Assembly (NCBI GenBank): GCA_039030075.1
Contig: JBCCEW010000034.1
Location: 1-54,197 of the forward strand
DNA from: Myxococcota bacterium
Lineage (GTDB): Bacteria > Myxococcota_A > UBA9160 > SMWR01
Length of the DNA stretch: 54,197 nucleotides
Direction of reading: 5' to 3'
Under the pieces are notes generated by a model. It saw only the letters and a program-made list of their open reading frames with translations. It ran no database searches and was not told the origin of the DNA. Both the position numbers and the translations under genes were made by a program. Below are positions 1-25,468 of this stretch, one piece after another; position 1 is the stretch's first letter; the number at the start of each line of letters is the position of its first letter.

Positions 1-294
1 CAGGCCGGCGCACTCGTCTTCCCTTCTCTCATCCAACCGGAGAAGTTGATCCCGGACGGCCTCGCGCTCTTCAACGATGCATGGCGCGTGCTGGAGAAAT
101 GGGAGAAGCCGTTCGTTACGGCCTACGGCAAAGCAGATCCGATTCTGGGCTGGTTCGACACCGTGTTTCAGGAGCACGTCCCCGGCGCGGCAGGCCAACC
201 GCACAGAATATTCCCGGAAGGTCCGCACTTCATTCAAGAAGTCGAAGCGGAGGCTCTCGCCGACTCGATCGTCGCGGCTGCGTCAGCGAGCTGA
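1..294 (+). CDS. haloalkane dehalogenase, C-terminal part (partial)
   Basis: The reading frame is open from the first base, so the gene begins outside the window; about 97 residues remain. The tail resembles DhmA/DhlA-type haloalkane dehalogenases, alpha/beta hydrolases that cleave carbon-halogen bonds: WEKPF, then GKADPILG, then PGAAGQPH, then PHFIQE, whose His is expected to be the catalytic base. The nucleophile Asp lies in the missing part. A TTG at 46 is not needed as a start because homologous sequence continues upstream of it. Family assignment rests on remembered motif similarity; substrate is unknown. Confidence 0.75.
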   Translation, partial: QAGALVFPSLIQPEKLIPDGLALFNDAWRVLEKWEKPFVTAYGKADPILGWFDTVFQEHVPGAAGQPHRIFPEGPHFIQEVEAEALADSIVAAASAS

Positions 295-347
295 ATCGGT
301 TCCCGCTGCCAACCCTGCGGAGTTGTTCGCCATCCGGAGAAGCCCGC

Positions 348-1226
348 TTGAACGAAGATCCGCTCGGCGGGTTCGTGTTGCCGCTGTCGATGTTCATCCT
401 CATGTTCGGGATGGGCCTCGCGCTGACGCCGGGCGATTTCCGCCGCATCGCGCGGGTACCGGGTCCGGTGATCACCGGGACGCTGATCCAGCTGATCGTC
501 ATGCCCGTCGCCGGCTTCGCGCTCGCGCTCGCGTTCGAGCTGCCTGCGATGCTCGCGGTCGGGCTCGTGATCGTCGCCGCGTGCCCCGGCGGCATGGCGT
601 CGAACGTGATGGTCCATTTCGGCCGCGCGAACACGGCGCTCTCGATCACGCTGACCGCGACCGCAACGACCGCGACGTTGCTCACGATGCCGCTGTGGAT
701 CCGGGCCATCCTGTCGGTGGTCGGCGGGGAGGCTTCGGAGGTCGAGGTGCCGCTGCTCTCCACGGCGGTGGAGCTCGGCGGGCTAACGGTGCTGCCCGTG
801 GCACTAGGGATGGCGCTGCGGCACACGCGCCCGAGCGCGGCCGCCTGGGAAGCGCGGCTCACGCGTATCGGTCTGCTCGGCGTGGTCGGCACGCTCGGCT
901 TCGCGGGCATGCAGCGTCCCGATCCGCCGATCGCCGAGTTCTGGCTCTCCTTCCCGCCCGCGATGCTGCTGATCGCCGTGTCGCTCGTGCTCGGCTTCGG
1001 CGTGCCGCGGTTGCTGCGTCAGTCGATCGAGGATGCGGTGACGCTCGGCGTCGAGATCTGTCTCAAGAACGGGCTGCTCGGTCTGGTCGTCGTCTCCGGC
1101 ACCTTCCACGCCCTCGAGCCGAACATCCCGGTTCTGATCTACACGACGTTCATGGCACCGCTGGCGATGGTGCTCGTCATCTACAACCGGATCCGGGTCC
1201 GCGGGGCGCGCGCCGCGCAGATCTAG
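348..1226 (+). CDS. bile acid:sodium symporter (BASS) family transporter
   Basis: A 292-residue, very hydrophobic protein with about nine to ten predicted membrane segments, the usual size of the BASS/SBF family of Na+-coupled organic anion carriers. It shows the family-like stretches VIVAACPGGMASNVM and LGVEICLKNGLLGLVV near the two discontinuous helices. I chose TTG at 348 because GGAG lies at 336-339 and the protein then begins just before the first membrane helix; the frame is open farther upstream but that translation is not membrane-like. Substrate cannot be told from sequence. It follows the dehalogenase by 53 bases and may be co-transcribed. Confidence 0.8.
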   Translation: MNEDPLGGFVLPLSMFILMFGMGLALTPGDFRRIARVPGPVITGTLIQLIVMPVAGFALALAFELPAMLAVGLVIVAACPGGMASNVMVHFGRANTALSITLTATATTATLLTMPLWIRAILSVVGGEASEVEVPLLSTAVELGGLTVLPVALGMALRHTRPSAAAWEARLTRIGLLGVVGTLGFAGMQRPDPPIAEFWLSFPPAMLLIAVSLVLGFGVPRLLRQSIEDAVTLGVEICLKNGLLGLVVVSGTFHALEPNIPVLIYTTFMAPLAMVLVIYNRIRVRGARAAQI

Positions 1227-1489: not shown

Positions 1490-1856
1490 TGGTGGAGGCG
1501 GCGGGAATCGAACCCGCGTCCGCATGGTGTCCGGCCAACGCGTCTACGTGCGTAGTCCCTGCCCAATTTCGGTGGAGCCAGTCACAGGGTCCGGGAGAAG
1601 CACCCACCTAGACAGACATGGTTCTCGCCCCCGGATGCGGCCTGTCAGCGGCCGGGGGCCAGTCTCCTAATGACGACCGTGACCCGCTAGGAGACGTCAC
1701 GGACGGTCGTCGCTGACGCTAGGGTTTAGCTAGGCAGCGATGGCGTAGTTGTCATCGGCAGTTATCACTACCAATTGCCACCTGGATTAACGAGGTGGGT
1801 GACGACCTCGGCACGCAGCGCTCGCTTTCGACCACCCGTCGAAACCGATCGCCCCC
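1490..1856 (-). ncRNA. ssrA: tmRNA (transfer-messenger RNA)
   Basis: A 367-nt tmRNA on the minus strand. The 5' end GGGGGCG pairs over 7 bp with the 3' acceptor strand; the T arm GCGGG-TTCGATT-CCCGC and an encoded CCA (1490-1492) complete the tRNA-like domain. The tag reading frame runs from about 1765 down to a TAG stop at 1732-1730 and encodes ITADDNYAIAA if the resume codon (ATA) follows a TAGTG determinant as TAGTC does in E. coli; a GTG one codon earlier is also possible. The YAxAA ending matches the degradation tags recognised by ClpXP-type proteases. Its protein partner smpB is at 17665-18156 in this window. Confidence 0.95.
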
Positions 1857-17664: not shown

Positions 17665-18156
17665 CTAGCGCCGACGCTGCCGGGTGACACGCGCGAGCTC
17701 GCGGTCGGTCTCCCGGCGCCGGACCGTCTGGCGCTTGTCGTAGAGGCGCTTGCCGCGGGCCAGGCCCAGCTCGACTTTCGCGCGCCCCTCCTTCCAGTAC
17801 AGCCGGAGCGGAATCAGCGTGAGGCCCTTCTCCGCCACCTTCCCCGCCAGGCGCCGAATCTCGCGTCGGTGCAGGAGCAGGCGGCGCTCGCGCTGGGGCT
17901 CCGGGTTGGCGCGGCCGGCCTGCTCGTAGGGGGAGATGTGCAGGCTCAGCAGGAACGCCTCGCCGCCTCGGATGATCGCGTAGGCGTCCCCGAGGTTCGC
18001 ACGGCCCTCACGGAGCGACTTCACCTCCGGACCGAGCAACTGCATGCCCGCCTCGACGGTCTCGAGGATCTCGTACTCGAAGCGGGCACGGCGGTTGGTC
18101 GCGATGACGTCGCCACCGCCCGCCTTGTCCTTCTTCGACTTCCCCGACTTCGCCAT
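17665..18156 (-). CDS. smpB: SsrA-binding protein SmpB
   Basis: 163 residues, the usual SmpB length. It binds the tRNA-like domain of tmRNA and delivers it to stalled ribosomes. Visible family signatures: NRRARFEYEILETVEAGMQL, GPEVKSLREGRANLGDAYA, HISPYEQAG, and the basic C-terminal tail starting GLARGKRLYDKRQTVRRR. The cognate tmRNA gene is in this window at 1490-1856. Upstream of it on the same strand is panD, and the diguanylate cyclase lies downstream. Confidence 0.97.
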   Translation of the reverse strand: MAKSGKSKKDKAGGGDVIATNRRARFEYEILETVEAGMQLLGPEVKSLREGRANLGDAYAIIRGGEAFLLSLHISPYEQAGRANPEPQRERRLLLHRREIRRLAGKVAEKGLTLIPLRLYWKEGRAKVELGLARGKRLYDKRQTVRRRETDRELARVTRQRRR

Positions 18157-18214
18157 GGCGGCGAAGAGTAGCGTCGCCCCCCAGGCGCGGGGGCGGACGC
18201 TGCGACCTCGGGGG

Positions 18215-18598
18215 TCAGCTCGGGAGCTTCACCGGCGACGGACCCGCGATCTCGCGCGCGACGTTCCGGTGGTCGACGAAGACGCGGATGCCCTCGAAGT
18301 CCCGGCACTTCTCGTCCTCGACCTGGACGTAGCTGCAGATGATCACGAGATCGTGGGGCTTCACGAGGTGCGCCGCGGCGCCGTTGATGCAGATCTCGCC
18401 GGACCCCCGCTCGCCCTCGATGACGTAGGTCTGAAGACGAGCGCCGTTGGTCACGTCGAGCACGTCGACCTGCTCGTAGGGCAGGATGTCGGCCGCCTCG
18501 ATCAGGTTCGGATCGATCGTGATGCTGCCTTCGTACTCGACGTTGGCCTCGGTCACGGTGGCACGGTGGATCTTGGACTTGAGCATGGTGCGGATCAT
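18215..18598 (-). CDS. panD: aspartate 1-decarboxylase PanD
   Basis: 127 residues from ATG 18598, which matches the family N-terminus ([16 protein letters not shown]) and has AGGAG upstream. It makes beta-alanine from aspartate for pantothenate. The self-cleavage site is the canonical Gly24-Ser25 in EYEGSITID; Ser25 becomes the pyruvoyl cofactor. Lys9 and Arg-containing IHRATVT are conserved. Third gene of a panB-panC-panD operon; it starts 14 bases after the panC stop codon. Confidence 0.96.
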
Positions 18599-18612
18599 GA
18601 GGGGTCTCCTCG

Positions 18613-19497
18613 TCACGCCTGCGCGAGCAGGACGCGGTTGTCGATGAGTCGAACGGTGTGCCGCTGTTCCGCGGGCGGAACGGCGGGATGCATGAAGACG
18701 GCCAGGGCCAGGAGCGTCGGTCCGTCGAGTGTGGTGGGTGCAGGTGACAGGTCGTCGGGGTGGCGGAGCTCGGCGTAGTCGAGTTCGCCGCGAGGCGCCT
18801 TCGCCACCTCGGCACGCACGGTGGCGAGCAGGCGAGCGCCGTCGCGCTCCCCCGCCGCCACGGCGGCCTCGGCCGCGTCCAGTGCCCGGGAGAGCACGAG
18901 CGCCTGGCTGCGCGCCTCGGCGTCGAGGTTCAGGTTGCGGCTCGAGAGCGCCAGCCCATCGGCCTCGCGCACCGTCGGTGCGCCCACCACCTCGACGTCG
19001 AAGCAGAGGTCGCGGGCCATCCGGCGGATCAGGGCGAGTTGCTGGAAGTCCTTCTGACCGAACACCGCGACGTGCGGCTTCGCGACCAGGAAGAGCTTGG
19101 CCACGATCGTCGTGACCCCACGGAAGTGGCCGGGCCGAGAGGCCCCGCAGAGCGGCCGGGACAACGCCTCCACCTCGACGAAGGTGTCGGCGCCTTCCGG
19201 ATACATCTCAGCGGCGTCGGGCAGGAAAACGAGATCCACGCCGGCCTCCCGACACGCCGCGAGATCACTCTCGAGGGTGCGCGGGTAGCCGTCGAGGTCC
19301 TTCGGATCGTTGAACTGGGTGGGGTTCACGAAGATCGACACCCAGACCTGGTCGGACCGCTCCCGGGCGGACCGCACGAGGGAGAGGTGTCCCTCGTGCA
19401 GTGCACCCATCGTCGGCACCAGGCCGATCCGCTGCCCAGCGGCGCGCACGGCATCGGCGCGCGCCTGCAGCGCTCGAACGCTCTCGATGCGTTCCAC
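18613..19497 (-). CDS. panC: pantothenate synthetase PanC
   Basis: 294 residues. It ligates pantoate and beta-alanine using ATP. Signature motifs: [10 protein letters not shown] (28-37, the nucleotidyltransferase HIGH-type motif), [15 protein letters not shown], and LALSSRN (KMSKS-like loop region). Start ATG at 19497 lies 9 bases after the panB stop, so panB, panC and panD form one transcript on the minus strand. Confidence 0.97.
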
Positions 19498-19506
19498 CCT
19501 TCGGAC

Positions 19507-20334
19507 CTAGCGGTACGAGTGCTCGGCGTCGGGGAACTTGCGCTCCCGGACTTCCTCGGCGAAGCGTCGCGCGGCCTGGGCCACGGTGACCCCGACCCCG
19601 GCGTACTGCTTCACGAAGCTGGGCGTCCAGTCCGAGAGGCCGAGCATGTCGTGCATCACGAGCACCTGGCCGTCGCACTCGACACCCGCGCCGATTCCGA
19701 TCGTCGGGATCTCGAGCGCCTGGGTCACGGCGCGCGCCAGCTCGGCGGGCATGCCCTCGAGCACGACCGCGAACGCTCCGGCTTCCTGCACCGCGTGGGC
19801 GTCGGCGATGACGCGCTCGGCGCTGTCCTCGGTGCGACCCTGCACGCGATGGCCCCCCATGCGATGGATCGCCTGGGGCGTGAGGCCGACGTGCCCCATC
19901 ACCGGAATCTCGGCCGCGACGATGCGCTCGATGGTCGTGGCGACGTTGGTGCCGCCCTCGAGCTTCACGGCCTGGGCCGCGCCCTCCTTCACGCAGCGAA
20001 CCGCGCTGCGCAGCGCGTCTTCGGACGAGATCTGGTAGCTGCCGAACGGAAGGTCGGCGACGACCAGGGCGCGCGAGGCACCGCGGGCGACGAGCCGGGT
20101 GTGATAGATCATCTCGTCGAGGCTGACCGGGAGCGTGGTGTCCTGGCCTTGCACGACATTGCCGAGGGAATCACCGACGAGCAGGACGTCGATGCCAGCG
20201 GCATCGAAGATACGGGCGAAGGTGAAATCGTAGGCGGTGAGCATCGTGATCGGCTCGCCGCGCTCCTTCGCGCGCTGGAGGGACGGAGCGGTCACGCGGC
20301 GTTCGCGTGCCGATTTCAGGGTGACGGTGGACAT
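19507..20334 (-). CDS. panB: 3-methyl-2-oxobutanoate hydroxymethyltransferase PanB
   Basis: 275 residues, first committed enzyme of pantothenate synthesis (ketopantoate from ketoisovalerate and methylene-THF). Signatures: MLTAYDFTFARIFDAAGIDV with the metal-ligand Asp residues, VGDSLGNVVQG, DLPFGSYQ, KLEGG, GHVGLTPQ and GIGAGVECDGQVLVMHD. ATG 20334 is preceded by GGGAGG. The gene begins only 39 bases after a strong intrinsic terminator in its leader (20374-20417), so expression probably depends on read-through. Confidence 0.97.
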   Translation of the reverse strand: MSTVTLKSARERRVTAPSLQRAKERGEPITMLTAYDFTFARIFDAAGIDVLLVGDSLGNVVQGQDTTLPVSLDEMIYHTRLVARGASRALVVADLPFGSYQISSEDALRSAVRCVKEGAAQAVKLEGGTNVATTIERIVAAEIPVMGHVGLTPQAIHRMGGHRVQGRTEDSAERVIADAHAVQEAGAFAVVLEGMPAELARAVTQALEIPTIGIGAGVECDGQVLVMHDMLGLSDWTPSFVKQYAGVGVTVAQAARRFAEEVRERKFPDAEHSYR

Positions 20335-20373
20335 GGGGTCCTCCCATCTCGACCTGATTTGTCACCGGCTCCA

Positions 20374-20417
20374 AGAAAACAAAAACGCGCCATCCCGGAT
20401 GGAATTCCGGAGGCGCG
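20374..20417 (-). terminator. intrinsic terminator in the panB leader (candidate attenuator)
   Basis: On the minus strand: stem CGCGCC/GGCGCG closing an inner CCGG/CCGG helix, immediately followed by TTTTTGTTTT. This is the clearest intrinsic terminator on this strand in the window. It lies 39 bases before the panB ATG, with too little room after it for another promoter. It may end a leader RNA or control read-through into panBCD. Confidence 0.8.
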
Positions 20418-20624
20418 GCTGACTCGTGCCGTGAGTGTCCGTTCGTGTGCGCCCGGACACCGGTAGCGCGAGTTCGCCTGCTGCTGCCCCCGTCTCGGTC
20501 CCGGGAGGATCCGAGCGTGCACTGGGCTGGGCGAGGCGTGTCTTCGGTTTCCTGGCGCACAGCGCTCAGGACGGGGGTTTTGGCCCTTCGATGAAGATCG
20601 CAACTTGCGATTCCTCTCTGAGCC
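20418..20624 (-). ncRNA. long leader RNA of the pan operon (possible cis-regulator or small RNA)
   Basis: If transcription starts about 7 nt after the promoter at 20631-20660, some 205 nt precede the terminator hairpin. No credible ORF is present. The leader has two clear hairpins: GTGTCCG/CGGACAC at 20435-20460 and ATCGC/GCGAT at 20597-20611. A pan RNA motif is known upstream of pantothenate genes in some bacteria including Deltaproteobacteria, but I could not confirm that this sequence matches it. It could also be a free-standing small RNA. Confidence 0.45.
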
Positions 20625-20630
20625 GCAGAA

Positions 20631-20660
20631 AGGATAGACCCCGTTTTTCCTCAGGGTCAA
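20631..20660 (-). promoter_or_regulatory. candidate sigma-70 promoter for the panBCD leader
   Basis: Read on the minus strand: -35 TTGACC (20660-20655), 18-nt spacer, -10 TATCCT (20636-20631). It sits in the 454-base gap between the ksgA-linked small ORF and panB, about 300 nt upstream of panB. Apart from this promoter, the leader and the terminator I see nothing else in that gap. Confidence 0.6.
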
Positions 20661-20788
20661 GAAAAGGAATCCCCCCGTGGGGGAGAACCTGTTTCAGCGT
20701 TTCGACGGGGAACGAGCGCTGGAAATTCGCTCTGTTCGGGCGGCTCCTGCGAATCGGCCCGCTGCCCCAGAACCGCCACGGGCGCCGC

Positions 20789-21049
20789 TCAGGGCTCCAG
20801 GAGCGCGCGAATCGCAGGCGGGAGATAGCGCTCCTCCAGGGCCGGCCCGGCGTGGGCGCGCAGGCCCTCGACGAGCGCGTCCACCTGCCGCGCGGCGGGC
20901 TCGCCGGCGACCAGGACCACCCAGATCTCACCGCGTACGCGGCAGACGCCGCTCGTCGGCGGCGCGTCGGGAGGGCCGGCCGCCCGTACTTCCAGCCCGA
21001 ACTCCCCGGCGAGCTCCCGCAACGCGACGAGACACTCCTCGGGGCTCAC
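20789..21049 (-). CDS. small conserved hypothetical protein downstream of ksgA
   Basis: 86 residues, soluble, about pI-neutral. It begins VSPEECLVALRELAGEFGLEVR and has a central strand pair (GVCRVRGEIWVVLVAGE) followed by helices (QVDALVEGLRAHAG; LEERYLPPAIRALLEP). GTG 21049 overlaps the ksgA stop as GTGA, and codon use is like its neighbours, so I regard it as real. I do not recognise a function. It is the last gene of the dksA-like/tsaD/ksgA string. Confidence 0.6.
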   Translation of the reverse strand: MSPEECLVALRELAGEFGLEVRAAGPPDAPPTSGVCRVRGEIWVVLVAGEPAARQVDALVEGLRAHAGPALEERYLPPAIRALLEP

Positions 21050-21888
21050 GCGGACCACTCCGCCAGGCTCCGGGTCAACGCGACGAACGCCTCCGGAGCC
21101 AACGTCTCCGCACGCGCACCCGCGTCGACGCCCGCGCGAGCGCACACCTCGGCGAGCACCGCCGCCGACCCGAGACCGCCCCCCCGAAGCGCGTTCGCGA
21201 GCGTCTTGCGACGCTGGCCGAAGGCGGCGCGAACGACGCGCTCCACCTGACGCAGGGAAGTGTCTCCCAGCACAGCGCTCGGTCGCGGGACGATCCGCAC
21301 GAAACGCGATGCGACCTGGGGAGCGGGAAAGAAGGCCCCACCGCCGAGATCGCGCACGCGCTCCACGTCGACACAGAGGGCGTGCAGCACCGCCAAGGAC
21401 CCGTAGTCGCGCCCCCCCGGCGGCGCCGCGATGCGCTCGGCCACATCCCGCTGCAACATCACCGACCAGTCGCGGAGTCGGTCGCGGAGATCGAGCAACA
21501 CGCGCAGGATCGGGCCCGATACCGAGTAGGGAAGGTTCGCGACGACCCGCACGGCGGCTTCGCGACGGACGAGCCCGGTCCAATCGACGCGCAGGGCATC
21601 CTGGTGCAGCAGCTCCACGTTGTCGGGGAGCAGCGCTTCGGCCGCGAGGGCGCGCACCAGTCCCCCGTCGATCTCGATCGTCACGACGCGTCGTGCGCGT
21701 GCGGCGAGGGCCCGCGTGAGCACGCCCAACCCGGTGCCCACTTCGATCACGACGTCGTCGGGTTCCACGCCGGCGGCGTCGACCAGCGCGTCCGCCAGCG
21801 CGGCGTCGCAGAGAAAGTTCTGCCCGCGGTCCTTGTGGAGCACCAGCTCATGGCGCTTCAGGATCTCGCGGATCTCGTCGGCCTTCAC
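21046..21888 (-). CDS. ksgA: 16S rRNA (adenine-N6,N6)-dimethyltransferase KsgA/RsmA
   Basis: 280 residues. It dimethylates two adjacent adenosines in helix 45 of 16S rRNA. Signatures: HKDRGQNFLCD at the N-terminus, SAM-binding VIEVGTGLGVLTRAL, and the catalytic motif IV NLPY (VVANLPYSVSGPIL), followed by FFPAPQVASRFVRI. GTG 21888 overlaps the tsaD stop (GTGA); there is no upstream ATG that fits the family. Translationally coupled to tsaD and to the small ORF after it. Confidence 0.95.
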   Translation of the reverse strand: MKADEIREILKRHELVLHKDRGQNFLCDAALADALVDAAGVEPDDVVIEVGTGLGVLTRALAARARRVVTIEIDGGLVRALAAEALLPDNVELLHQDALRVDWTGLVRREAAVRVVANLPYSVSGPILRVLLDLRDRLRDWSVMLQRDVAERIAAPPGGRDYGSLAVLHALCVDVERVRDLGGGAFFPAPQVASRFVRIVPRPSAVLGDTSLRQVERVVRAAFGQRRKTLANALRGGGLGSAAVLAEVCARAGVDAGARAETLAPEAFVALTRSLAEWSA

Positions 21889-22943
21889 CCGGAACTCGCG
21901 CCCTGCCAGGGTGCGGTGCCGAGCGGGACCCGCGAGAAGGAGTTCAGGGCGAAGCCGTGGTGCTCTCCGCGTGCCAGGAGGCGCGCCCCGGCGGCGGCGA
22001 TCATGGCGGCGTTGTCGGTGCAGAGCGAGAGCGGCGGGAACACGGCGCGAAAGCCGGCGTCGTCCCCCGCGGCAGCCAACGCCTCGCGCAAGCGGCGATT
22101 CGCCGCGACGCCCCCCACCACCGCGACCTGGTCGAGCTCGGTCTGGGATGCCGCGCGACGCGTGCGGGCGACCAGCACGTCCACCGCAGCGGCTTCGAAG
22201 GAGGCCGCCAGGTCGGCGCGCACGTCGTCGGTGAGCGGACGCTGACGTTCGACCTCGAGCGCGACCGCGGTCTTGAGACCGCTGTAGGAGAAGTCGAGGC
22301 CGGGACGATCGAGCAGCGGCCGCGGGAACGAGAACGCGTCGGTGCTTCCTTGCTCCGCCAGCCGCGAGACGGCCGGCCCGCCGGGATAGGGGAGATCGAG
22401 GAGCGCGGCGACCTTGTCGAAGGCCTCGCCGACCGCGTCGTCCCGGGTCTCGCCGAGGAGCTCGGGCTCGGCGTCGTCGATGCGGTAGAGCGCCGTGTGC
22501 CCGCCCGAGACGACCAGTCCCAGATAGGGCAGCGCGAGGTCCGGGTCCGCGAGCTCCGCCGACGCGAGATGCCCCGACAGATGGTGCACGCCGACGAGCG
22601 GAACGCCGAGCCGATACGCGAGCGCCTTGCCGAAGGACAGGCCGACGAGCAGCGAGCCCACGAGCCCCGGGCCCGCGGTCACCGCGACGCCGTTCAGCAT
22701 GTCGCTTTCGATCTCGGCCTCGCGGAGGGCACGCTCGACGACGCCGGAGACGGCGGCGAGGTGGTCCCGCGACGCGAGCTCGGGCACGACCCCGCCGTAG
22801 GGGCGATGGACGTCTTCCTGACCGTGGATGCAACTCGACGCGATCGTGCGACCGTCGCGCACGACGGCCGCGGCCATCTCGTCGCAGGAACTCTCGATCC
22901 CGAGCACCCAACGCATCGGATGCCGACCCGAAGCGTCGGGCAT
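21885..22943 (-). CDS. tsaD: tRNA N6-threonylcarbamoyladenosine transferase TsaD
   Basis: 352 residues. With TsaB and TsaE it transfers threonylcarbamoyl to A37 of ANN-decoding tRNAs. The ASKHA motifs are present: LGIESSCDE (about 14-22), GPGLVGSLLVG, the metal-binding H121-LSG-H125, VVSGGHTALY, VVGGVAANRRLRE and CTDNAAMIAAAG. ATG 22943 is 3 bases after the dksA-like stop; a second in-frame ATG at 22916 matches the usual N-terminus better and may be the true start. Confidence 0.95.
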   Translation of the reverse strand: MPDASGRHPMRWVLGIESSCDEMAAAVVRDGRTIASSCIHGQEDVHRPYGGVVPELASRDHLAAVSGVVERALREAEIESDMLNGVAVTAGPGLVGSLLVGLSFGKALAYRLGVPLVGVHHLSGHLASAELADPDLALPYLGLVVSGGHTALYRIDDAEPELLGETRDDAVGEAFDKVAALLDLPYPGGPAVSRLAEQGSTDAFSFPRPLLDRPGLDFSYSGLKTAVALEVERQRPLTDDVRADLAASFEAAAVDVLVARTRRAASQTELDQVAVVGGVAANRRLREALAAAGDDAGFRAVFPPLSLCTDNAAMIAAAGARLLARGEHHGFALNSFSRVPLGTAPWQGASSG

Positions 22944-22946
22944 GAC

Positions 22947-23312
22947 TCAGCCGGTTCGACGCTCGAGCTTTTCCTGCTCCGACTTGCACTCGATGCAGAG
23001 CTCGGCGACGGGGCGAGCCTTGAGACGAGCGACGCCGATGGCCTCGCCACAGGACATGCACTCTCCGTACTCGCCGTCCTCGATCTTCTTCAGCGCCTCG
23101 TCGATCTTCGAGAGCAGGCCCTGCTCGCGTTCGCGGAGGCGTCCAGCGAACTGGAGGCTCACCTCGGACGAGGCGATGTCCATTTCATCGGGAAAGTCAT
23201 CGGGATCGACGTGGATGTCCCCGGACAACGTCTTCTTGGTGTTGCCGACGATCTGTTCACGCTGCTCGGTCAACAGCTTCTTGAACTTCTGCAAGTCCCG
23301 CTTGTTCAACAC
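22947..23312 (-). CDS. dksA: DksA/TraR family zinc-finger transcription factor
   Basis: 121 residues. Coiled-coil N-terminal half with the DksA tip motif DEMDIA (Asp42, Asp45, Ala47), which reaches into the RNA polymerase secondary channel and works with ppGpp. The C-terminal zinc site has four cysteines: Cys85, Cys88, Cys106 and Cys109. ATG 23312 begins 66 bases after cpoB. Full DksA function (rather than a TraR-like homologue) is likely because tip residues and all four Cys are intact. Confidence 0.9.
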   Translation of the reverse strand: MLNKRDLQKFKKLLTEQREQIVGNTKKTLSGDIHVDPDDFPDEMDIASSEVSLQFAGRLREREQGLLSKIDEALKKIEDGEYGECMSCGEAIGVARLKARPVAELCIECKSEQEKLERRTG

Positions 23313-23378
23313 GACCCCCCATGAGCCACGTGTGCGGCTCCACTCTGGTTGTCCGCGTCCCGCCCGCGGAGATTGCGA

Positions 23379-24149
23379 TCAGCCGGCCCCGAGAAGCTCG
23401 AGCTGGCGCTTCGCTTCGGGCACGCGAGCCGAATCCGGGTAGTCGCGCATGACCTTCTCGAACGCATTGCCCGCAGCCGTGCCGTGCCCCATCCGCAGCA
23501 GCGCTTCGCCTTGTCGGTAGAGCGCGTCGGCGGCTTTATTGCCCGTCGGGTACTGACGAGCCACGTCATCGAACCGCAGAACGGCTGCGGAATAGTTGCC
23601 CTGCTTGAAGTAGCAGTCGGCCAGCCAGTAGGTTGCATCGTCGGCATAATCCGAAGCCGGATAAGTTTGCAAGAACTTCCCGAAGCGGTCAACACAGCCC
23701 GCCGCGTCTCCGGACCGCCACTTTGCGTAGGCATCCCGGTAGCTCTGGACCTCTTCGGACACGGGCTCCGACGGGGAATCGCCCCCCTGGCCCGGTGACT
23801 CGGGCCCCGGCTGCGCCTGGGAAGCGCCCAGGTTCGCCTCGCGGCGCGCCGCCCGCGCCTCCTCGAGCGCCTGCTTCGCCTGGCGCTCCATCACCTCGAG
23901 CCGACCGTTCAACGCATCGAGGTCGCGCTGTAGCGACGTCACCTGGGAGCCCAGATCGGCCAGGCGATCCCGATCGCCGGGTCCACCCCCGCCACCCGAC
24001 TTCTCGAGGTCGGTCACGCGATTCTGGAGCTTGCGCAGCTCGGCTGGCGTCGCGCAGGCCACCGACAAGAGCGCGACCGCTCCGAGAGCGATCGCCAGCA
24101 CGCGCGCGTGCCGCTTTGCCGTGGACTTTCCTGCCGTGTGTTCGTGCAT
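23379..24149 (-). CDS. cpoB: Tol-Pal system protein CpoB/YbgF
   Basis: 256 residues. N-terminal hydrophobic segment ends in LLSVAC (Cys32), a plausible lipobox, unlike the soluble E. coli protein. A trimer-forming coiled coil follows (LRKLQNRVTDLEK; LGSQVTSLQRDLDALNGRLEVM), then a Pro/Gln/Ser linker and three TPR-like repeats (DYADDATYWLADCYFKQGNY; NKAADALYRQGEALLRMGHG). It couples outer-membrane constriction to peptidoglycan synthesis. It directly follows tolB; the pal gene expected between them is absent. Confidence 0.9.
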   Translation of the reverse strand: MHEHTAGKSTAKRHARVLAIALGAVALLSVACATPAELRKLQNRVTDLEKSGGGGGPGDRDRLADLGSQVTSLQRDLDALNGRLEVMERQAKQALEEARAARREANLGASQAQPGPESPGQGGDSPSEPVSEEVQSYRDAYAKWRSGDAAGCVDRFGKFLQTYPASDYADDATYWLADCYFKQGNYSAAVLRFDDVARQYPTGNKAADALYRQGEALLRMGHGTAAGNAFEKVMRDYPDSARVPEAKRQLELLGAG

Positions 24150-24160
24150 GCCTTCCCCCC

Positions 24161-25468
24161 TCAGCGCGGAAAGGGGCCCCAGTCGGGGCTCGTGTTGTTT
24201 CCCGCGGAACTGGTCAGACGGCGCAGGCTGGAACCGTCGCGATCGATCACGTAGAGATCCGCCCGCCCGCGCCGCGTCGAGCTGAAGATCAGCTTTCGCG
24301 AATTCGGCGACCAGCTCGGTGCCTCGTCACTGCGCGGGTTCGTGACGAGCGGAACGTTCACGGTTCCATCCGGGTCGATCAGCCAGATGTCGAACTGCCC
24401 CCCGACCCGGGTCTCGTACGCGATCCACAGCCCGTCGGGCGACCACTTCGGGTTGGTGTTGTAGGAGCCGTCGAAGGTGAGTCGGCGGATGTTCGTCCCG
24501 TCCGCATTCATGAGATAGATCTGGGGCGACCCCGTGCGATCGGAGACGAACGAGAGACGCTCGCCATCGGGCGAAAAGGACGGCGAGATGTCGATCGCCC
24601 GGCTGCGCGTGAGACGCTTCAGCCGACCCCCGTCCGGAGCCACGGTGAAGAGGTCCGCCGCTTCGCCCGTGCTCATCACGAGCGCCATCCGGTTCGGATC
24701 CGGGCTGAAGACCGCCCGGTAGAGCGAGCGCTCTACCCCGAGCCGAGACAGGAGCCGACCGGGACGCGCCTTCCCGCGACTCGACAAGAAGATCAGCGGC
24801 CGATTCTGCTGTCGGTAGGAGGTGTAGATGATCCCTTCGCCATCTGGTGACCAGGACGGGAAGTTGTTGATCGAGCGGTTCGCCGTCGCAGCGCGTGCGT
24901 TGCTGCCATCGGCGTTCATCACGTAGATCTCTTTGTTGCCGCCGCGATCCGACACGAAGGCGATCTCGGTACTCGACACGCCGCGGAGACCGATGAATGC
25001 CTCGACGACGTCGTCGGCCAGGCGACGCGCGGCCCGCTCGAGGTCGCGACCGGACTGCTGGTAGCGGCGGCGCAAGAGGCGCCGACAACGCGACGCATCC
25101 CAGACACGGAACGCGATGCTGAAGCCCGCCGGGTCTCGCTCGATCTCGCCCTCGACCAGCGCGTCGGCGCCGATCTGGGACCAGTTCGGGCAGTCGAGAG
25201 GCGCGTCGGCGCGCCCTTCGGCCGTCGTCACCGGCCCGAGAAAGGCGTCGTCCGGGATCTGACGGAAGACGTTCGAGTACTCGAGGGCCGCCGTGAGCGC
25301 GGCGCGGAACTCGGCGGCCAGCTTGGGGTTGGCGTCGCGGAACTGCTGAACCGCGATCCGATAGGTCTGCTCGCCGCCCGGGGTCACGACCACCGCGGCG
25401 CGCTCGGCGCTCGCGGCAGAGAGACCGAACACAGCGGCGAACGCCAGGAGCGTGTAGAGCCCCCGCAT
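24161..25468 (-). CDS. tolB: Tol-Pal system periplasmic protein TolB
   Basis: 435 residues from ATG 25468, whose A is shared with the tolA stop (TGATG). A signal peptide (MRGLYTLLAF...LSAASA) is followed by the N-terminal TolB domain (IAVQQFRD; VWDASRCRRLLRRRYQQSG) and a six-bladed beta propeller with repeated SWSPDG/FSPDGERLSFVSDRTG-type units. It binds Pal and TolA in the periplasm in other bacteria. An earlier in-frame start at 25504 would sit inside tolA and is less likely. Confidence 0.95.
   Translation of the reverse strand: MRGLYTLLAFAAVFGLSAASAERAAVVVTPGGEQTYRIAVQQFRDANPKLAAEFRAALTAALEYSNVFRQIPDDAFLGPVTTAEGRADAPLDCPNWSQIGADALVEGEIERDPAGFSIAFRVWDASRCRRLLRRRYQQSGRDLERAARRLADDVVEAFIGLRGVSSTEIAFVSDRGGNKEIYVMNADGSNARAATANRSINNFPSWSPDGEGIIYTSYRQQNRPLIFLSSRGKARPGRLLSRLGVERSLYRAVFSPDPNRMALVMSTGEAADLFTVAPDGGRLKRLTRSRAIDISPSFSPDGERLSFVSDRTGSPQIYLMNADGTNIRRLTFDGSYNTNPKWSPDGLWIAYETRVGGQFDIWLIDPDGTVNVPLVTNPRSDEAPSWSPNSRKLIFSSTRRGRADLYVIDRDGSSLRRLTSSAGNNTSPDWGPFPR

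Follow-up and report, generated by a model that had tools for sequence, protein, structure and literature searches.

The window, that is, the whole 54,197-nt stretch of Myxococcota DNA analyzed here, carries panB (20334..19507; ATG at 20334), panC (19497..18613) and panD (18616..18215) in direct succession on the minus strand, on which all of the window features described below lie. panB is the first gene of the controlled operon. panC was taken from the list of open reading frames (ORFs), and we take its product, from the sequence, to be pantothenate synthetase; panD overlaps panC by 4 nt. The next ORF beyond panD is smpB (17665..18156), and a tmRNA gene was found at 1490..1856. A promoter, a structured leader and an intrinsic terminator are located 5' of panBCD, and the leader is present in a single copy in its own genome.

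Promoter, leader and terminator

The promoter that had been claimed from the sequence, TTGACC-18-TATCCT (20660..20631), was borne out by a consensus scan and by the same arrangement in 61 relatives. It was the only sigma-70-like site that the scan detected within positions 18000-25000 (shuffled sequences yield 0.2), and transcription is predicted to start around 20624, a few nt 5' of the first hairpin of the leader (HP1). In nearly all of the 61 homologous leaders the promoter took the form TTGAC(A/C), a spacer of 16-18 nt and usually TAnnnT, at a distance of 9-13 nt from HP1, and 59% of these leaders, as opposed to 0.3% of shuffles, reached a score of at least 9 of 12 matches. A second terminator-like hairpin (20689..20668), lying just 5' of the promoter, apparently ends the upstream gene set; its position would leave the pan operon isolated from upstream transcription.

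The predicted fold of the leader was better than those of all 200 dinucleotide shuffles (z = -4.2). HP1 (20618..20590), identified by RNAalifold without a prior, by covariation and by its match to hairpin 1 of the pan motif (Rfam RF01749), reads GA-GAGGA-[A]-UCG...CGA-UCUUC-[A]-UC. Two adenosines are bulged in the window sequence, and the more 5' of them is replaced by C in many relatives. A linker of 72 nt (20518..20589), which contains a small hairpin and a conserved stretch around ACGCC, separates HP1 from the second hairpin, HP2; a motif scan placed the corresponding distance at 45-123 nt across relatives. HP2 (20517..20491), recognized by a partial RF01749 match, RNAalifold and covariation, reads CG-CUCGG-[A]-UCC...GGA-CCGAG-[A]-CG, and both of its bulged adenosines are in register with RF01749 and nearly invariant in the 61 relatives. 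HP2 is enclosed by a helix, P0b, the 5' strand of which (GCCC, 20524..20527) pairs with 20489..20486 and covaries in relatives, where GCCC/GGGC alternates with ACCC/GGGU. An outer helix, P0a (ACGCC/GGCG), is tentative, as no more than 72% of its cells are paired. The 3' tail of HP2, CGGGGGC (20492..20486), closes HP2 and P0b. The original prediction had described two stable hairpins and no ORF in the leader. HP1 and HP2 are indeed the two that matter, but the leader has more than two hairpins; likewise, there is no ATG 5' of the terminator hairpin, but GTG and TTG frames are present in the mechanical ORF list.

The intrinsic terminator (20417..20376) consists of CGCGCCUCCGGA-loop-UCCGGGAUGGCGCG followed by UUUUUGUUUU. 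Its hairpin (20417..20386) has a predicted energy of -20 to -21 kcal/mol and precedes TTTTTGTTTT at 20385..20376. The strong terminator claimed earlier is thus confirmed, but it ends 41 nt, instead of 39 nt, before the panB ATG.

A diverged pan RNA outside the Rfam cut-off

The original prediction had left undecided whether the leader is part of the pan motif. Searched with Rfam at its own cut-offs, the locus gave no match, and no family other than RF01749 was found there at relaxed settings either. Under the latter settings, RF01749 matched HP2 partially (model positions 61-87 at 20517..20491) with 18.0 bits; the gathering cut-off of 36.2 bits, which is an annotation threshold and not a biological feature, was not reached. 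The window leader and RF01749 have in common tandem hairpins in the order of hairpin 1 and hairpin 2, a 5-bp stem interrupted in each of them by one bulged adenosine per side, UC...GA at the upper stem, a G-rich tail and a position 5' of panB, panC or panD. They differ in the linker (72 nt with its own hairpin in the window, about 31 model positions in RF01749), in the sequence of hairpin 1 (including the C at the 5' bulge in many relatives), in P0b, which was added around hairpin 2 in the clade of the window, and in the tail (GGGGGC and GAaGG, respectively). Sequence and predicted structure mark the leader as a diverged pan RNA, a variant below the Rfam cut-off and not a member as Rfam defines it.

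We detected seven sub-threshold RF01749 matches over 147 related whole genomes, of which five were located just 5' of panB on the same strand and one before panD; panB homologues were present in 138 of the 147 relatives. The one before panD (ORF 258..758) is at locus L032 (725..827, minus strand), apart from the panB loci in that genome (G090). With a descriptor comprising 2 bp, a bulged A, 4-6 bp, a bulged A and 3 bp, hits were found before panB in 70 of 130 relatives, the controls giving 1 (antisense), 0 (coding) and 3 (further upstream) hits; the descriptor also exposed HP1 at 20618..20590. Both pan hairpins were recovered without a prior when 35 leaders were aligned with MAFFT and folded with RNAalifold. 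A covariance model trained on these 35 leaders yielded one match (E ≤ 1e-5) in each of 69 of the 147 whole genomes, all belonging to the same order, and about half of the matched leaders were outside the training set. The match was immediately 5' of panB in 68 of the 69 genomes; in the exception the match lies on another contig, and the panB start is 263 nt from a contig end.

When 61 leaders were fitted to the model, standard pairs made up 93.7% of the pair cells, as compared with 36-51% for slid pairs. The covariation score was 0.292 against 0.164 for shuffled alignments (0/500; the genomes are related and not independent), and compensatory changes were found in both hairpins (e.g., AU 24, UA 14 and CG 11 at HP1 columns 10-26). 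This alignment was fitted to the structure that was counted on it, and the counts from the unfitted 35-leader RNAalifold alignment are the safer basis. The original prediction had named a lack of leader conservation in relatives as grounds for its refutation; the leader is conserved, and the prediction is not refuted on this point.

Above the cut-off, RF01749 was absent from all 377 genomes of the phylum of the window, but genome samples from the phylum of a Pelosinus (L166) and from the class of a Desulfuromonadales metagenome-assembled genome (MAG; L157) contained it in 92 of 249 and 45 of 117 cases, respectively. Intermediate scores of 38.0, 30.3 and 29.2 bits were obtained for L153, L139 and L059, respectively, and the match in L139 was also directly before panB. 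Those relatives that carry names are Myxococcota and Deltaproteobacteria MAGs. Hairpin-2-like elements were also seen before panB in a Terriglobia MAG (L161) and a Nitrospinae MAG (L169), which possibly extend the motif to further phyla.

Predicted pairing of the HP2 tail with the terminator and the proposed attenuator

A mutually exclusive antiterminator had been suggested as something to look for, and the tail of HP2 is now a candidate. Two earlier searches, covering the outer P0 strand (AGGCG) and other parts of the leader, detected no antiterminator beyond shuffles, and the outer P0 strand was rejected as being no better than shuffles; it was the leaders outside the order that pointed to the HP2 tail, which fits. 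In the window, the tail (20492..20486) can pair with the segment GCCUCCG (20414..20408) within the 5' arm of the terminator through 7 bp, plus 2 past a mismatch (-15.8 kcal/mol), and is the best of all segments of the leader for this arm. As the tail also closes HP2 and P0b, its two pairings are mutually exclusive. Constrained folds of the window RNA with the terminator (OFF) and with the antiterminator (ON) amounted to -113.0 and -113.8 kcal/mol, respectively, less than 1 kcal/mol apart, so opening a terminator of approximately -20 kcal/mol is predicted to cost almost nothing.

Of the 53 same-order leaders that have a terminator, 47 place the tail among the top 5% of leader segments as a partner for the arm, and in 39 no other segment ranks higher; the arm permutation p of 0.03 is weak since the arms hardly vary within the order. 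In a mixed wider set, it was the best or near-best (top 5%) in 59 of 70 leaders, and swapping the arms between genomes reduced the pairing from -13.1 to -11.4 kcal/mol (sd 0.25; 0/5000; the genomes are related and not independent). Two-sided changes that preserve the pairing were found in L021 (GGGAGAG/CUCUCC) and L083 (GAAGGCGC/GCGCCUUC), and outside the order GGAAGG tails stand opposite CCUUCC arms. The complementarity appears to be present, more weakly than in the order of the window, in the sequences of canonical pan RNAs as well: the tail ranked within the best 5% in 18 of 29 leaders of Bacillota (permutation p 0.005) and in 22 of 30 of the class of L157 (permutation p 0.02). Canonical pan RNAs were followed by a called terminator in 59 of 60 cases.

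We propose, with a probability of about 0.78, that panBCD is controlled by a diverged pan RNA acting as a transcription attenuator, in which a stabilized pan hairpin means OFF. Transcription would start a few nt before HP1, and HP1 and HP2, each with its two bulged adenosines, would constitute the sensing part. With HP2 and P0b kept shut, presumably by a bound regulator (an end product or an RNA-binding protein), the tail CGGGGGC would be hidden, the terminator would form and transcription would halt before panB. With HP2 and P0b open, the tail would pair with the arm GCCUCCG, no terminator would form and panBCD would be read. The two hairpins, P0b, the promoter, the terminator, the place before panB and the tail-arm complementarity are all shown by comparison of the leader sequences; we infer that the complementarity serves in the cell as an antiterminator, that a bound regulator switches panBCD off and that the signal is a metabolite or an RNA-binding protein. 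Attenuation of panBCD, as had been predicted, is supported by the joint conservation of the promoter, the leader and the terminator together with the antiterminator candidate. In biosynthetic operons, shut-off by the end product is the usual logic. PyrR-regulated pyr leaders and many transcriptional riboswitches likewise combine a sensor hairpin, an overlapping antiterminator strand and, ahead of the first gene, an intrinsic terminator; this likeness is in mechanism, and the window leader has no Rfam similarity to those families. We regard the chance as slightly better than even that the 3' tail is the switching strand of the entire family, either closing hairpin 2 or pairing with the 5' arm of the following terminator, in which case pan RNAs would generally be feedback attenuators and P0b would share the strand in the clade of the window.

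The pan motif RF01749 was reported by Weinberg 2010 (PMC2864571) and, in the papers found, has been named only as a candidate or an annotation before panB (PMC2864571, PMC4342826, PMC5670726). We found no ligand, protein or switching mechanism of pan RNA in the literature searched, which covers few subscription journals; a pan antiterminator may have been described earlier elsewhere. For an RNA reported in 2010, an expression platform with named strands is proposed here, its range is extended to a phylum that has no Rfam annotation of it, and the new alignment narrows the conserved core to the bulged adenosines, the UC...GA pairs and the tail. What pan RNA senses is now directly testable through in vitro termination.

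Alternative explanations and other outputs

The attenuator would be otherwise the same if the pan hairpins bound an RNA-binding protein, probably a dimer touching both, instead of a small molecule, and we give this a little under an even chance. Protein binding was suggested from the simple tandem hairpins by Weinberg 2010 (PMC2864571). HP1 and HP2 differ in sequence and share the bulge geometry, and the spacing of 45-123 nt suits two separate sites more than one compact pocket. On the other hand, neighbouring hairpins are also able to dimerise around a small ligand, as they do in guanidine-II riboswitches.

A riboswitch, the hairpins of which jointly bind pantothenate, pantoate, beta-alanine, CoA or a related compound, is a possibility that we hold somewhat more tentatively. 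The strict placement before pantothenate genes across the order, the very conserved bulged adenosines and the near-equal energies of the two states are in its favor, but the hairpin spacing is variable, C replaces A at the 5' bulge of HP1 in many relatives, and no ligand was reported in the literature found.

A reading that accepts the hairpins and the terminator but takes the tail-arm complementarity for a by-product of high G+C content, with read-through being set otherwise, is unlikely. The tail is G-rich and the arm is C-rich, a composition to be borne in mind in all of the pairing comparisons, and the tail is nearly symmetric, so that the reversed tail is no usable control; the within-order permutation and the two negative searches are also as a by-product would have them. 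Nevertheless, the two-sided changes in separate lineages and the permutations in the mixed set and in canonical pan RNAs argue against it. Attenuation mediated by a ribosome on a leader peptide would share the layout of promoter, leader and terminator, but is most improbable, as the leader has no ATG before the terminator and its conserved features are paired RNA columns.

Returning to the attenuator of panBCD proposed above, a terminator-like hairpin with a U-tract was found in 54 of the 61 leaders, eight being without a called terminator in a second count, and several relatives in the class and phylum have HP2 without a terminator. To judge from these sequences, the terminator is not a universal output device and other outputs exist. 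Seven relatives (L091, L093, L098, L107, L111, L113 and L118) possess a single hairpin, CCC(C)TGGA..CCGGGAG(G/A), approximately 40 nt 5' of panB, and no terminator was called in them. L066 and L072 possess both pan hairpins but lack a terminator, hairpin 2 being as close as about 35 nt to the panB that follows. We considered whether hairpin 2 masks the ribosome-binding site in distant relatives, and rejected this since panB mostly starts approximately 40 nt on and has its own GGAGG. Complementarity between the terminator 5' arm and the panB ribosome-binding site exceeds that of shuffles (mean z -1.2), which carries little weight, as any CCUCC is expected to match GGAGG. In L131 and L134, a pan-like hairpin lies 9 nt before the panB ATG and abuts a GAGG-type ribosome-binding site; these two cases may represent a translational version of the switch.
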